Source: Glycocaulis albus (lineage in GTDB: Bacteria; Pseudomonadota; Alphaproteobacteria; Caulobacterales; Maricaulaceae). Taken from it: a stretch of DNA of 45,931 nt. Both the position numbers and the translations under genes were made by a program. Where the stretch lies: assembly GCF_014639075.1 (NCBI RefSeq), contig NZ_BMFS01000007.1, positions 148,402 to 194,332 on the forward strand, in the 5' to 3' direction. Positions 3,967 to 30,885 of this stretch are shown piece by piece. Positions within the stretch are counted from its first letter, which is position 1. Every line of letters begins with the position of its first letter. Below the pieces are notes generated by a model that worked only from the letters and a program-made list of their open reading frames with translations, made no database searches and was not told the DNA's origin.

Positions 3967-4034
3967 CACCCCCGGCCCGCTCCTTGCGTGTTCTCCCTTG
4001 AAAGCCCGCAAGGGCCGGTAAAGGATGTGCCGTG

Positions 4035-4532
4035 ATGAAACAGGTTCTGGCCGTACTGGCATTGCTAGCCGCCGCTGGCGCGCCCGCATGGGCGCAAAAC
4101 GCCAGGGAGATCGCGCGCGTGCAGGCGGGCAGCTCCTGCACCGGATGCAATCTGTTCCAGGCCGACCTCGCCTACCGCAACCTGCCGGGCGTGGACCTTT
4201 CCGGCTCGCGCCTGCGCCAGGCGGATCTGTCGCTCTCCACCATGAATAATGCCCGGCTGGCACAGACCGACCTTTCCATCGCCAATCTGTTCGGCGGCCG
4301 GTTTACGGGGGTGAGCTTTGCCGGAGCCAATCTGGAACGCGCCACTCTGGTGGGCGGATATTTCGGCGGCGCGGACTTTTCCGGCGCGAACCTTGCCGGG
4401 GCCAATATTTCCGGCGCCGAGATGGAGCGCGCCCACGGCCTGACACAAAGCCAGCTGAACACTGCCTGCGGCGATGCATCGACGCGCCTGCCCGCGGGCC
4501 TGCATGTTCCGCCGTGCACGGCTTCGCGCTAG
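4035..4532 (+). CDS. Exported pentapeptide-repeat protein (short paralogue)
   Basis: 165 aa from the ATG at 4035, with AAGGA about 10 nt upstream; a GTG one codon earlier is less likely. A signal peptide covers residues 1-21 (A-W-A cleavage site). A C-x-x-C motif follows (S-C-T-G-C), then about 15 pentapeptide repeats of the A-(D/N)-L-x-x type, expected to form a right-handed quadrilateral beta-helix. The chain closes with a cap containing C-G-D-A-S-T-R-L-P and a final Cys. The next gene, 61 bp downstream, has the same CxxC entry and the same cap, so the two are paralogues and probably one operon. Periplasmic location is inferred; the function of such exported repeat proteins is not known to me. 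Confidence 0.85.
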
Positions 4533-4593
4533 ACATTTCCCATTACTGCAATTTAAGTCGCTCTTGCCTGCGCCGGGGAGTAGGAAAAAGGGC

Positions 4594-5796
4594 ATGACGC
4601 TGCGCCATCTTGTCTTTGCTGCGCTTTTTCCGCTGACAGCGTTAACGCCGTCAGCCCTTGCCGCGTCCGATCTTGGCGAGACCAGCGATACGGCACAGGC
4701 CGTCCGGGCCCAGCGCGATACCGATCCGCAACGCCGCCTGGTGATTGGCGGGGAATGCGCCTCCTGCGATTTCAGCGGGTCGAACCTGGCAGGCGCGCAC
4801 CTCTATCGCGGCGATTTTGCCAATGCCGATTTTTCCGGCGCGCAGCTCCTGGGCGCGCGCTTCGCCAATATGCGCCTGGATGGCGCGGACTTCTCCGATG
4901 CGTCCATGCGCGAGGTGCGCCTGTCCAATGTGACGATGAGCGGCGCCATCCTGACCGGCGCGAACATGACGGACATGCGCGCGCACCAGGTCATGCTGCA
5001 GGGGGCCAATGCCCGCGACGTGCAGATGAACGGGGCCAGCCTTGTTCAGGTGGCCCTGCAGGGCTCGAACCTGCGCGAGGCGGATTTCAGCACGGCCACG
5101 ATACGCTCCGGCGATATGCGTGCAGCCGATCTCAGCGAGGCACGCCTGACCAATGTGGTGATGCAGCACATCATCATGCACCGCGCCAATTTGCGCGATG
5201 CATCGATGGAGGGCGCGTTTCTCGATCATGTGGACCTGACAGGCGCACGTCTGGCCGGGGCCAATCTGGCCGGGGCGCGCTTCCGTGCAGTAAACCTCAC
5301 CGGGGTGGATCTGAGCGATGTGGACGGGCTGACACCGGAACTGCTCGCCCAGGCCTGCGGGGACGCGTCGACGCGCCTGCCCGATTTCCTGATCATCACG
5401 CTTTCAGCGTGCGACGAGCCGGTCGCAGGAACCGGTCCGGTCGATGAGCGCGCCTTTATTGCCGAGGCCGAGGCGCGCCGCCTGGCGCAGCTGGAAGCCG
5501 CGCAGGAAGCCTTTGCCAATGCGCTGGCCAGCGTTCAGTCAAGGGCCATGGCCGCTGGCGGGCTGGAGCGCGAGGCGATGGAGCATGCCCGCGAAGCCCT
5601 GCGCGAGGCTGCCCGCGCGCAGGCCGAGCTGGCCCGGGCGCGCGCCCATACGGGCTGGCAGTTTGAAATACGCCGCTCTGAAGTGGGCGAGCCGGTGCAG
5701 TTCTGGCTGGAGGACGCGCAGCGCCCGTCCACGCCGCCCGCGCCACCCTCGCCACCCTCGCCCCCTGCCCGCTCCGAGCGGCCCGACCGGCGGTAG
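4594..5796 (+). CDS. Exported pentapeptide-repeat protein with coiled-coil and Pro-rich tail (long paralogue)
   Basis: 400 aa from the ATG at 4594, which opens a clear signal peptide (residues 1-23) and follows a purine-rich AAAAAGGG. An upstream in-frame ATG at 4474 lies inside the previous gene and lacks a signal sequence. After E-C-A-S-C come roughly 40 pentapeptide repeats (about 55-260), then the same C-G-D-A-S-T-R-L-P cap and terminal Cys as the neighbour. Unlike the neighbour it continues with an Ala/Glu/Arg-rich helix (about 285-355) and a Pro-rich tail. A small hairpin (5808-5831) follows the stop but lacks a T-run. The longer repeat block and added tail suggest duplication followed by divergence, perhaps with the two proteins acting together in the periplasm (inference). 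Confidence 0.85.
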   Translation: MTLRHLVFAALFPLTALTPSALAASDLGETSDTAQAVRAQRDTDPQRRLVIGGECASCDFSGSNLAGAHLYRGDFANADFSGAQLLGARFANMRLDGADFSDASMREVRLSNVTMSGAILTGANMTDMRAHQVMLQGANARDVQMNGASLVQVALQGSNLREADFSTATIRSGDMRAADLSEARLTNVVMQHIIMHRANLRDASMEGAFLDHVDLTGARLAGANLAGARFRAVNLTGVDLSDVDGLTPELLAQACGDASTRLPDFLIITLSACDEPVAGTGPVDERAFIAEAEARRLAQLEAAQEAFANALASVQSRAMAAGGLEREAMEHAREALREAARAQAELARARAHTGWQFEIRRSEVGEPVQFWLEDAQRPSTPPAPPSPPSPPARSERPDRR

Positions 5797-5861
5797 GGTT
5801 GGTTTTCCAGTGCGTGCCGGTTTTCGCACTGCTCGCTGCAGGATCACACCCCCCACCCCTT

Positions 5862-6022
5862 CGTCATTCCAGAAGCGGCGCAGCCGCTATCTGGAACCCA
5901 GTCGTTCTTGAAAAAATCTGGGTTCCGGGTGTCGCTGCGCTCCCCCGGAATGACGAAAAGAGTGGGCGTGTTCTCCTACATCGTCGTTCCAGCCGCAGCG
6001 AAGCTGCAGAGCCGGAACCCAG
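5862..6022. repeat. Three palindromic R1 repeats
   Basis: Three copies of a roughly 40-bp element with conserved ends (GTCATTCC or GTCGTTCC on one side, GGAACCCAG on the other) and a self-complementary centre: 5862-5901 forward, 5918-5955 inverted, 5982-6022 forward. The centres differ in sequence but each folds back on itself. Further copies occur at 6335, 12497, 15734, 15931, 24751, 24911 and 30662. Confidence 0.8.
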
Positions 6023-6053
6023 AAAACTGTTTCTTTCGCGCGAGCGCCTCTTT

Positions 6054-6334
6054 CAGCCTGCCGTCTACATTCTGGCGAGCCAGCGCAACGGTACGCTCTA
6101 CACCGGCGTGACCAGCGATCTGTTGCGGCGGATTTACGAACATCGCGAAGGAATGGTGCCTGGCTTCACACGCAAGTATGGCGTGAAGCTTCTCGTCTGG
6201 TTCAAGTGCATGCCACCATGGAGCACGCCATTATCCGCGAAACGCGGATCAAAGGCTGGAAACGCGCATGGAAGCTGGAACTGATCGAAGCGGCCAACCC
6301 TGATTGGCGCGATCTGTACGAGACGCTGCTTTAG
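6054..6334 (+). pseudogene. GIY-YIG nuclease-superfamily gene, frameshifted and lacking a start codon
   Basis: The frame from about 6054 gives V-Y-I-L-A-S, then T-L-Y-T-G-V-T-S-D-L and R-R-I-Y-E-H-R, the hallmarks of the small single-domain GIY-YIG family (about 90-100 aa). After L-L-V-W-F at 6203 the frame is lost. The next frame continues with H-A-T-M-E-H-A-I, K-G-W-K-R-A-W-K and ends D-L-Y-E-T-L-L at a TAG (6332-6334). Restoring one G after 6203 would rejoin the halves. No ATG, GTG or TTG lies in frame between the repeat at 5982-6022 and the domain start, so the 5' end also looks lost. Palindromic R1 repeats abut both ends in opposite orientation. Function of the family is nucleic-acid cleavage; this copy is probably dead unless the deletion is a sequencing error. 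Confidence 0.8.
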
Positions 6335-6375
6335 CTGGGTTCCAGATAGCGGCTCACGCCGCTTCTGGAATGACG
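6335..6375. repeat. Palindromic R1 repeat, inverted copy
   Basis: Begins at the base directly after the TAG of the GIY-YIG remnant and is inverted relative to the copy at 5982-6022. Its centre (AGATAGCGGC and its partner GCCGCTTCT) forms a hairpin. It also lies just past the 3' end of aspS on the other strand and could act there as a 3' structure, though no T-run follows. Confidence 0.8.
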
Positions 6376-6402
6376 AGAGGTAGAAGCAGGAGGCTTCCCC
6401 TC

Positions 6403-8229
6403 CTACCCCTTCTTCGCCTCCGGCAGCACGGTGCGCAGGTGCAGCTCGCGCAGCTGGCGCGCTTCCGGGTAGGCCGGCGCGTTCATCATCAGATCGCGAG
6501 CCTGCTGGTCTTTGGGGAACATCACCACTTCGCGCAGGTTTTCGACGCCCGCCAGCAGCATGACGATGCGGTCCACGCCCGGCGCGATACCACCATGCGG
6601 CGGGGCGCCATAGCGGAAGGCGTTGAGCATGCCGCCGAAGGCTTCCTCGACCACTTCCGGGCCATAGCCTGCATATTCGAAGGCCTTGAGCATCACATCG
6701 GGACGGTGGTTACGGATGGCGCCGGAGGACAGCTCCACCCCGTTGCACACGATGTCGTACTGCCAGGCTTTCAGGCCCAGCAGCGTGTCGGAGTCCTTGG
6801 GGTCGAGCGCCATGAAGGTCTCGGCGTCCATTTGCGGCATGGAGAACGGGTTATGGGAGAAATCGACCTTCTTCTCGTCCTCATTCCACTCATACATCGG
6901 GAAATCGACGATCCAGCAGAAGCGGAACACGTTCTTCTCGGTGAGATCGAGCTCACGCCCGACAATGTCGCGTGCGCGGCCGGCAAAGGCGTACATGTCT
7001 TTCGGCTGGCCTGCGACGAAGAACACCGCATCGCCCGCTTTCAGGCCGAGCTGGGTACGGATGGCGTCGGTGCGCTCCTCGCCGATATTCTTGGCGATGG
7101 GGCCTGCGCCTTCCAGCTGCCCACCCTCTTCACGCCAGAAGATATAGCCAAGGCCCGGCTGGCCTTCCTTTTGCGCCCAGCTATTCATCCGGTCGCAGAA
7201 CGCGCGTGAACCGCCCGTCGGGGCAGGGATCGCCCACACCTCTACGGCGGGGTTTTTCTCGATCATGCCGGCAAACACCTTGAAGCCGGAACCGGCAAAC
7301 TGCTCGGTCACGGCCTGCATTTTCAGCGGGTTGCGAAGATCCGGCTTGTCAGAGCCATAGGTGCGGATGGCCTCGGCATAGGGAATGCGCGGGAAGGCGT
7401 CATCGCTCACTTCGCGGCCATCAGCGAACTCGCGGAAGAGGCCCGCCAGCACCGGCTCGATCACGCCGAACACGTCTTCCTGGTCGACAAAGCTCATTTC
7501 CATGTCGAGCTGGTAGAACTCTCCGGGCGCACGGTCGGCGCGCGCATCCTCGTCGCGGAAGCAGGGCGCGATCTGGAAATAGCGGTCAAAGCCGGAGACC
7601 ATGATGAGCTGCTTGAACTGCTGCGGGGCCTGCGGCAGGGCGTAGAACTTGCCCGGATGCAGGCGCGAGGGCACCAGATAGTCGCGCGCGCCTTCGGGGC
7701 TGGAGGCGGTGAGGATCGGCGTCTGATACTCGACGAAATTCTGCTCGACCATGCGGCGGCGGATGGAGTCGATGATTTTCGAGCGCAGGACGATGCGCTT
7801 GTGCAGGCTCTCGCGGCGCAGATCGATATAGCGGTGCTTCAGGCGCACTTCCTCAGACCAGTCCGGCTCGCCGAACACGGCCAGCGGCAATTCTTCCGCC
7901 TCGGACTGGACGGTGAGGCCCTCCACGCGCAGCTCCACCTCGCCGGTGGGCAGATTCTTGTTCACCGTGTCATCGCTGCGGGCAACCACCTTGCCCGTCA
8001 GCGTGACAACGCTCTCCACGCGCAGGCGCTCCAGCCGGGCAAAATGCTCTGAATCCGGCTCCAGCACGCACTGGGTCAGGCCGTAATGATCGCGCAGATC
8101 GATGAACAGGAGGCCGCCATGGTCGCGCTTGCGATGCACCCAGCCGGAGATGGTGACATCATTGCCCACGTCGGTCTTGCGCAGCTCGCCGCAGGTATGG
8201 GTGCGCCAATGGGTCTTGGTAACGGACAT
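6403..8229 (-). CDS. aspS: Aspartyl-tRNA synthetase
   Basis: 608 aa, the usual bacterial length. It charges tRNA-Asp with aspartate in the cytoplasm; alphaproteobacterial enzymes of this type are often non-discriminating and also charge tRNA-Asn for later amidation by GatCAB (family knowledge). The N-terminal OB-fold anticodon-binding domain is at about residues 1-115 (G-W-V-H-R-K-R-D). The class II core shows motif 2 as [11 protein letters not shown], then L-D-M-E-M-S-F. The bacterial GAD insertion is in the middle, and motif 3 is G-G-I-A-P-G-V-D-R near the C-terminus. The ATG at 8229 starts directly at the conserved N-terminus. A TTGACA at 8342-8347 (minus) may be its -35 element, but the -10 is poor. 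The gene ends about 30 bp from the repeat at 6335. Confidence 0.97.
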
Positions 8230-15637: not shown

Positions 15638-15969
15638 GGCGTATGCCGGGTGTCTAGTCCCGCTGAACCCCGGTTTCCGCCGGGAAAACGCGAACAGGTT
15701 GGGCCGTGCAATAACTGCCACGCCCCTCCACCTCGTCATTCCGGCCGCAGCGAAGCGGAGAGCCGGAACCCAGCCTCTTTGTTGCGCAACGCATCTGCGT
15801 TGCGATGTTCTGCGAAAAGCCGCGGGCGGGCCTTGCCCTTGCAGGCCGCAAAGCGGCCTGAAAAGCGCGACCGCGCGCCGGGCACTTTTGCCCGCAGCGA
15901 CGCACGGATGTGCGGAGCACAAATAAACGACTGGTTTCCAGATAGCCCTTCGGGCTTCTGGAATGACGA
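15638..15969. repeat. Palindromic repeat island 2, with an inverted R1 pair
   Basis: Holds short ACCGGC-type hairpins (15638-15705), an R1 copy (15734-15773, forward), the R4 palindrome GCAACGCATCTGCGTTGC (15786-15803), an R5 module ending in CGGATGTGCGGAGCA (about 15857-15919), and an inverted R1 copy (15931-15969). The two R1 copies thus enclose R4 and R5 in the same inverted layout that encloses the GIY-YIG remnant at 5982-6375. No gene is seen in the island. Confidence 0.75.
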
Positions 15970-20412: not shown

Positions 20413-20513
20413 CCCCGTCCTTCGAGCGCCACCGCGTCCGAGAGGATGAGGGAAAAGCGCACCTAAAGCCCTCATCCTGAGGGGCCGTCAGGCCGTCTCG
20501 AAGGACGAGGGCT
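20413..20513. repeat. Inverted pair of dispersed palindromic repeats
   Basis: Two elements of the CTCATCCTGAG...CTCGAAGGACGAGG type that is common between alphaproteobacterial genes: one inverted at about 20413-20455 and one forward at 20467-20513, the latter with AGCCCTC/GAGGGCT ends. A further copy lies in the island at 21551-22024. The remaining sequence to panC holds another hairpin (20584-20609) and no gene. Confidence 0.7.
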
Positions 20514-21550: not shown

Positions 21551-22024
21551 CCAGCCAGGATCCCCGCCCACGAGCGGGGACCCATTTTTCTGGATCCCGG
21601 GTCAAGCCCGGGAACCCGGCTTGATTGAGCATGAATCCGGCAAGACGCATTTCGGCGGCACGGGCCGCGAAACCGGCATCCCTGAACGCTCCCTTCTTCT
21701 GCGTTCCCCCGACGAAAGTCGGGGTCCAGAAGGAAGACTCGGCTGGGCACCGGCTTATCCCGGTGAAACGCGCGCGAGGAGGCATCAATCCCCGGCAGCC
21801 TCTTCATCTTCTCGTCCTTCCCGCGCAGGCGGGAACCCAGCTTTTTATCTCTGGGTCCTCCGTCGTGGCGGGGGACCCCGGTGGATAGTTCAATGGCCAT
21901 TCGGGCCGCGCTAGCGGCCCGCAAGCGCGACCGCGCGCCCGAGCCACCCTCATCCTGAGGAGCCGCCGCAGGCGGCGTCTCGAAGGGGCGAGGAGCGACG
22001 CACGGATGTGCGGAGCATCAGAAA
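21551..22024. repeat. Palindromic repeat island 3
   Basis: The 511 bp between panC and the DUF1489 gene contain no gene. Elements in order: an R3 hairpin with GATCCCCGC/GCGGGGAC arms (21557-21586), an R2 element (21590-21624), CCCCGACGAAAGTCGGGG (21708-21725), a CACCGG/CCGGTG hairpin (about 21747-21770), a CCCGC/GCGGG hairpin (21817-21840), a CTCATCCTGAG element (21950-21991) inserted within an R5 module, and the R5 end CGGATGTGCGGAGCATCA. Confidence 0.75.
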
Positions 22025-24426: not shown

Positions 24427-24947
24427 GTGATGCTCCGGGGCATCCGCCCCGTCGCTGCGGGCAAAAGTGCCCGGCGCGCGTTCGCGCTTTTGGCCCGCAA
24501 GCGGCCTGAGGGGGTGCCAAACGCCCCACAACAGGGGTCCCGGTCCCCGAGCCGGGACCCATGGGGAGCCGCCAATCGCTCAAGATATGGATCCCGGGTT
24601 CCCCGTTTTCACGGGGACAGGCAAGCCCGGGAACCCGGTTGAGAAGTTCGGTGACAGGTACCGGTGTCCCCCACCCCGACGGGGGACCCATAGCGCACAG
24701 ACCACGCGTTTCACCGGCGAAAGCCGGTGCCCAGCCCTTTTCTACAACAACTGGGTTCCAGATAAGCGCTGACGCGCTTTCTGGAATGACGAGTTGGGTG
24801 GACATTGAAAGACACCGCTCTCCCGGCGCGCAGCGCCGCAAGGCCGACTGGCCGCCCGCGCTCGCGCGCGGAACATCGCAACGCGGATGCGTTGCGGAAC
24901 TAAAAGAGGCATGGGTCCCCCGGACCGCTACGCGGCCGGAGGATGAC
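24427..24947. repeat. Palindromic repeat island 4
   Basis: No gene in the 562 bp upstream of the JmjC-like pair. Elements: an inverted R5 module (24427-24500), an R3 hairpin with GGTCCCGG and CCGGGACC arms (24536-24564), a 57-bp R2 element (24588-24644) identical to 30500-30556, a CCCCGACGGGGGACCCAT hairpin (24670-24691), an ACCGGCGAAAGCCGGT hairpin (24712-24728), an R1 copy (24751-24791, inverted), the R4 palindrome (24878-24895) and an R1 variant (24911-24947, inverted). Confidence 0.78.
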
Positions 24948-30439: not shown

Positions 30440-30790
30440 CGTCGTTCCCGCGCAGACGGGAACCGAGAGCCATACCTGGTACTATCGCGCTGTGATATCT
30501 GGATCCCGGGTTCCCCGTTTTCACGGGGACAGGCAAGCCCGGGAACCCGGTTGAGAGGCTCGATGATAGATACCGGGGTCCCGGCCCCCGAACCAGATCC
30601 ATCTTCTCGTTTTCCCGGTATGAGCCCGTGAAACGCGTGAGAACGGAAAACCTCTACGCGTGTCATTCTCCGGCCGAGCGGCAGCGAGGTCCGGGGAACC
30701 CATGCCTCCTTTAGCTCCGCAACGCATCTGCGTTGCGATATTCCGCGAAAAGTCGCGGGCGCGCGTTCGCGCTTTTCAGGCCGCTATGTG
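30440..30790. repeat. Palindromic repeat island 5
   Basis: The 544 bp between the oxidoreductase and mccB hold no gene. Elements: a CCCGC/GCGGG-type hairpin (30444-30468), the 57-bp R2 element (30500-30556) identical to 24588-24644, a degenerate R3 copy (30568-30601), an R1 variant (30662-30703), the R4 palindrome (30719-30736) and part of an R5 module (about 30738-30790). The order R1, R4, R5 is the same as in island 2. Confidence 0.77.
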
Positions 30791-30885
30791 GCCAGCTATG
30801 AGCCCGTGATCGCGCCTTCTCAGGCATGGGGCACCCGCATGAAGCGGGTGATGACACTCGGTGGGAGCCAGGGGGCCCCTCCCCC

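Follow-up and report, generated by a model that had tools for sequence, protein, structure and literature searches.

Why should the remnant of a small nuclease gene lie tightly enclosed by palindromic repeats? The question is raised by a 45,931-nt stretch of the Glycocaulis albus genome (contig NZ_BMFS01000007.1, positions 148,402 to 194,332), hereafter the window, in whose own numbering positions are given. A sequence-only reading of the window had noticed a broken GIY-YIG nuclease gene between repeats and proposed a mobile unit, in which the nuclease moves or amplifies palindromes as REP-associated tyrosine transposases (RAYTs) do with repetitive extragenic palindromic (REP) sequences. We think it rather probable that the locus belongs, in decayed form, to a two-part system made up of a free-standing small GIY-YIG nuclease and its own dispersed family of REP hairpins (here of the CGTC type), many of them in inverted pairs (REPINs); the nuclease gene would be copied into REPIN sites by cutting and recombination. 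Across genomes, such genes are bracketed by matching repeats, and the pairing of enzyme and repeat is specific to the enzyme clade. The evidence supports the RAYT-like idea well as a partnership of enzyme and repeat. An action of the enzyme on its REP is likely. Movement of gene and repeats through cutting and recombination is the explanation that fits best, though it is unproven.

The locus contains the following parts (G000 is the G. albus genome itself; G001, G003 and G005 are relatives):

5797..6402, no strand assigned: intergenic block of 606 nt, shared by G000 and G001 (where the gene is intact) and missing from G003 and G005
5862..5901, plus strand: R1 REP with CGTC tag, hairpin and CCCAG tail, forming the upstream REPIN with the next entry (repeat scan, folding)
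5918..5955, minus strand: R1 REP that completes this REPIN, with a weaker hairpin (z -2.0; repeat scan, folding)
5982..6022, plus strand: R1-like REP immediately upstream of the GIY-YIG remnant (repeat scan)
about 6036..6334, plus strand: small GIY-YIG nuclease gene as a remnant, lacking its start and frameshifted once near 6200 (homology in two frames, within 6057-6284 and 6206-6334)
6335..6375, minus strand: R1 REP, inverted relative to those at 5862 and 5982, directly 3' of the stop codon (repeat scan, folding)

The arrangement first noticed, a forward REP at 5982-6022 with a GIY-YIG domain soon after it and an inverted REP from 6335 right behind the stop, was confirmed by the repeat scan and by Pfam, which places the domain from about 6060 (PF01541, E 8.6e-10, 39.2 bits). 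The gene is as damaged as had been described, without a start and with a single frameshift, and its second-frame piece (6206-6334) ends at the stop at 6334. Intact relatives exist at the same site in G001 (L084) and at another site in the same genome (L057). Folded as DNA, two of three R1 REPs form strong hairpins (5861-5901, z -5.7; 6335-6376, z -5.9; 0 of 200 shuffles as good) and one a weak hairpin (5917-5957, z -2.0; 3 of 200), with the CGTC tag and the CCCAG tail left unpaired. When the outer stem was simply counted, R1 showed no clear pairing and R3 only a little; folding did give pairing for R1. The unpaired CGTC tag, the stem opening with two A-T pairs, the short CCA-type tail and the inverted dimers are features that R1 shares with CGTC REPs, as these are characterised in the relevant part of Di Nocera et al. 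(2013, PMC3733652).

Bracketing was scored as the best local alignment between the 350 nt upstream and the 350 nt downstream of a gene, with a threshold of at least 22, in G000 and 40 relatives. Matching repeats are present on both sides of 73 of the 107 small GIY-YIG genes tested, which are those among the matches listed and fetched, against 14 of 1088 control ORFs (open reading frames) and 0 of 20 uvrC genes. The enrichment of palindromes beside small GIY-YIG genes over other genes, as the sequence-only reading would have it, is thus strongly positive. In the first round, 62 of 90 small GIY-YIG genes were bracketed (1 of 91 ORFs was dropped for want of flanks, and the window copy's second-frame piece had already been merged by coordinates), compared with the same 14 of 1088 among other ORFs of these loci and 6 of 352 among small control ORFs; in the later round, 1 of 18 without flanks was dropped and 2 of 20 regions yielded no ORF. 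Controls were the longest non-overlapping open frames of at least 90 codons, some of which are not real genes because they were called naively. Among public-genome loci (the best 80 of 578, spanning by record title Alpha-, Beta-, Gamma- and Deltaproteobacteria, Planctomycetota, Elusimicrobia and others), 53 of 79 small GIY-YIG genes are bracketed, against 5 of 301 controls. Six of 85 ORFs in this set had no flanks and were dropped. Since a broken or double gene entered more than once, the 79 tests stand for 74 loci; 51 distinct loci are bracketed. Chance bracketing is ruled out by the control ORFs of both sets and by uvrC.

The flanking palindromes had been expected to be R1-like and inverted. 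The enrichment at the flanks bears this out in part, but long flanking repeats (score at least 60) are mostly direct (21 direct, 1 inverted), and the shorter ones are mixed (19 direct, 32 inverted). The GTCAT tag is found in the matched repeat at 41 of the 53 bracketed public loci (best 80 of 578), but in only 30 of 73 among the relatives, so that the pairing extends beyond CGTC REPs.

The highest flank match seen (direct, score 173) belongs to a small GIY-YIG gene in L333 (2461-2772), and the long direct flank repeat of L049 is not REP-like by eye. L209 has two small GIY-YIG genes (2218-2505 and 5001-5288), 2.5 kb apart and identical in the first 24 residues of the domain; CGTCATTCCCGCG-type repeats bracket each of them. 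Small GIY-YIG genes of a third kind, whose products end in SGRAFAKKRL, have long direct repeats of another form (CCTTCG...) at L107 (7722-7958) and L129 (7631-7852); five others of this kind (L093, L106, L131, L112, L039) have flank scores below the threshold.

Does one genome hold one such pair or several? A search of G000 (2.85 Mb, 27 contigs) with PF01541 gave seven matches. One is a 664-aa frame that we take as uvrC, another is the remnant in the window, and the other five are small genes that are intact (L001-L005; in wider loci, L057-L061). Each of the five is bracketed by matching repeats of a different family, and the six loci, five intact and one dead, are associated with five repeat families. 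L084 and L057-L061 score 49.8-59.1 bits with PF01541 (curated cut-off 22.6), and in 21 aligned sequences including the intact copies Y22, R32 and E69, which we take to be catalytic positions, are invariant. NCBIfam has no family for seven proteins tested. The sequence relatives in PDB are two uncharacterised UPF0213 proteins. In 439,400 nt of G000, near-gene repeat counts are diagonal (family against gene) except for two matches of the loose R2 pattern. Because the family patterns were written from the flanks of these same genes, the diagonal arises partly by construction, and the evidence lies in the empty off-diagonal and in the distant copies. The GTCAT tag is present in R1 and R4, and the CGTC REP tag is absent from R2, R3 and R5.

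These counts bear on another explanation, in which the flanking repeats are merely regulatory hairpins of the GIY-YIG gene, such as terminators or mRNA hairpins. The downstream repeat does begin a median of 12 nt past the stop codon, and REP hairpins are stable. Yet in the same sample the families also occur more than 350 nt away from the gene (R1 25, R3 15, R4 10 and R5 8 copies), and whole REPINs including their spacers are repeated on both sides of the gene, which makes this explanation improbable.

The pairing is specific, as clade b shows: 13 of its 15 genes, against 0 of 93 others, have the R3 repeat (CTTCGAG...CTCAGGATGAGG) within 300 nt; six of the clade-b seeds had been chosen for having R3, and without them the count is 7 of 9. 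We also compared flanks among 61 bracketed loci, excluding 33 syntenic pairs. Related enzymes (similarity at least 0.6) at non-syntenic loci of different genomes have a mean flank similarity of 28.4 (104 pairs), against 22.2 for less related ones, and when flanks were shuffled among paralogues within genomes this value was reached in 0 of 2000 trials. The overall Spearman correlation of enzyme and flank similarity is weak (0.12; 1745 pairs; reached in 12 of 2000 shuffles); the signal is located in closely related enzymes. In addition, R3 copy numbers are higher in genomes having clade b (p 0.009). Mere hitchhiking, in which GIY-YIG genes reach REP-rich intergenic spots by chance, could appeal to the turnover of several REP families at the same spots, but given this clade-specific pairing and the control rate we regard it as very improbable.

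Relatives were compared at the window site and at L057, L058, L060 and L061; L059 was left out. At the window site, G001 has the intact gene L084, and in G003 and G005 the neighbouring stop codons are 0-2 nt apart. The L057 site holds a lone R1 REPIN without gene in G001 and G003. Where G000 has L060, a lone R4 REPIN is present in G002, whose own R4-type gene (L086) is at another place. G000 and G003 share one site of the R2-type gene, G002 and G005 another, and the site of the R5-type gene differs between G000, G001 and G005, three sites in all. The same gene clade thus occurs at different sites, with gene-free sites in relatives, as in mobile elements. At the level of ends, the window insertion does not coincide with its REPs; other loci have long direct REPIN repeats. 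The changed sites of gene and repeats among close relatives fit the proposed mobile unit, as do the lone REP pairs found at two orthologous positions, but no transposition step was observed and the ends do not match the REPs. At the orthologous intergenic spots of L057, L058, L060 and L061, REP pairs of different families are found in different species, as if these spots had been repeatedly colonised; at the L058 site of G005 a degenerate R2 pair was recognised by eye only.

Do the enzymes serve the host instead? The compared small GIY-YIG genes are under purifying selection, with omega of 0.03-0.17 in all 11 pairs compared (drawn from 12 genes of 4 clades; the pairs are not independent, and one dS is saturated). 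A GIY-YIG family named Ssn was reportedly described in Nature Communications in 2025 as site-specific nucleases of single-stranded DNA (ssDNA), acting on a Neisseria repeat present in hundreds of copies and modulating transformation; it is said to have many homologues, each with its own cognate sequences. Our locus resembles that family, as reported, in joining a small GIY-YIG enzyme to a cognate dispersed repeat, and may differ in adding evidence for a REPIN-bracketed mobile unit. A rival account is an Ssn/NTS-like regulator that is not mobile, in which the enzyme would cut its own repeat in ssDNA (for example during transformation uptake or replication) and so shape recombination, while the repeats would spread otherwise and the bracketing would be regulatory. 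In its favour, L173, a record labelled Neisseria, holds a 68%-identical gene flanked on both sides by CGTCATTCCCG-type (CGTC) repeats; purifying selection this strong points to a role in the host; and phage records are nearly free of such genes (1 of 50,697, at 42% identity). Taken alone, it leaves unexplained the changed sites between relatives and the lone as against gene-bearing REPINs, and we consider it a rather unlikely full account, though it and the two-part mobile system are not exclusive and can both hold.

Other roles were also considered. A phage homing gene was rejected on that one weak phage match, and an anti-phage defence gene because PADLOC has no family for five proteins tested. 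Among plasmid records, 36 of 72,556 have a small GIY-YIG match, including 9 from Rhizobium and 7 from Sphingobium.

How, then, might the two-part system work? The enzyme would recognise the unpaired ends and the hairpin of its own REP in single-stranded form and cut there. A lone REPIN so cut might be repaired by recombination with a gene-bearing REPIN-GIY-REPIN copy, which would copy the gene into the REPIN site and leave it between direct REPIN repeats; the gene could be deleted again when these repeats recombine. REP copies elsewhere in the genome would be the non-autonomous part. Such a system would work like the RAYT REPtron (TnpA-REP with GTAG REPs), with a hydrolytic GIY-YIG nuclease replacing the Y1 transposase. 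The two are alike in that one enzyme gene is bracketed by its own REP or REPIN family, with several families per genome and dispersed non-autonomous copies. They differ in the enzyme, since the gene between the REPs encodes a GIY-YIG protein and not a Y1/HUH transposase, in the GTCAT tag, which only some families carry here, and in the mostly direct orientation of the long flanking repeats. Free-standing GIY-YIG homing endonucleases of the T4 Seg type, whose genes spread by cutting sites without the gene, share the catalytic domain and the proposed spread through gene-free sites. Here, in contrast, the setting is bacterial chromosomes, the proposed target is a multi-copy repeat, and copies of that repeat flank the gene.

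RAYT or Y1 transposases might themselves mobilise the REPs, with the GIY-YIG gene as a passenger, and GTAG REPs are so explained in the part of PMC3733652 that deals with them. Yet PF01797 (Y1) was found in 5 of the 41 genomes and in none of G000-G009, while repeats of these families occur in G000-G005, G008 and G009, so that a passenger role is scarcely credible. For G000, RAYT-driven repeats are ruled out, as its genome has no PF01797 match.

Several observations weigh against this two-part system. Of the small GIY-YIG genes, 34 of 107 (among the matches listed) and 26 of 79 in the public set are unbracketed at the threshold. The unit boundaries had been placed at the REPs, and this failed: compared with the gene-free G003 and G005, the insertion spans 5797-6402 and extends past the outer REPs by about 65 nt on the left and 27 nt on the right. 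At three of the five sites compared (window, L058, L061), no clear lone REPIN of the same family was seen in the relatives. R3 repeats persist where no clade-b gene was found (49 copies in G001, 46 in G003), and no strict dependence of repeat numbers on the matching gene was found. Finally, GIY-YIG enzymes hydrolyse DNA without a covalent intermediate, and because of this the arrival of REPs at new sites is left unexplained.

A broader proposal is that the CGTC REP superfamily, like further hairpin families across bacterial phyla, has its missing enzymes in the small GIY-YIG nucleases. They would be multi-site homing genes that cut lone REPINs of their own family, are copied in by REPIN recombination and leave lone REPINs when lost, with enzymes and hairpin families co-evolving as separate lineages, five in this genome. 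We put this forward tentatively, and on balance doubt that it holds in full. REP hairpins are widespread in bacterial chromosomes, and in the sections of the 2013 survey that treat them (Di Nocera et al., PMC3733652) CGTC REPs form a superfamily without a dedicated transposase or other known dedicated enzyme; the term GIY is absent from the main text of that paper. A full-text literature search for GIY-YIG with REP, REPIN, RAYT or palindromic repeats, covering part of the literature, gave no title on the pairing among those listed. Matched enzyme-repeat pairs, several per genome, offer a direct biochemical and strain-level handle on what makes and moves REPs, with an enzyme chemistry that differs from that of RAYTs. 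If the Ssn work is as reported, the pairing itself is probably already known; the possible addition here is the REPIN-bracketed, site-changing behaviour of several lineages per genome and the link to the question of CGTC REPs.

Elsewhere in the window, eight further R1 copies had been named, of which those at 5862, 5918, 15734, 15931 and 24751 hold; 12497 is a half site, and the copies at 24911 and 30662 belong to the R4 family, ending ACCCATGCCT. Three R1 REPs lie distant from the GIY-YIG gene (all from the repeat scan):

15734..15773, plus strand: R1 REP
15931..15968, minus strand: R1 REP
24751..24791, minus strand: R1 REP

R3 and R4 REPs, likewise distant from their own GIY-YIG genes, are found at 20470-20506, 21948-21988, 24907-24947, 30662-30707 and 30822-30855. 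The block that contains the remnant is bordered by a pentapeptide-repeat gene (4474-5796) and by a gene for a class II aminoacyl-tRNA synthetase, read as aspS, on the minus strand (6403-8229). A shorter open frame at 4032-4532 overlaps the start of the pentapeptide-repeat gene and has a similar repeat pattern by eye.
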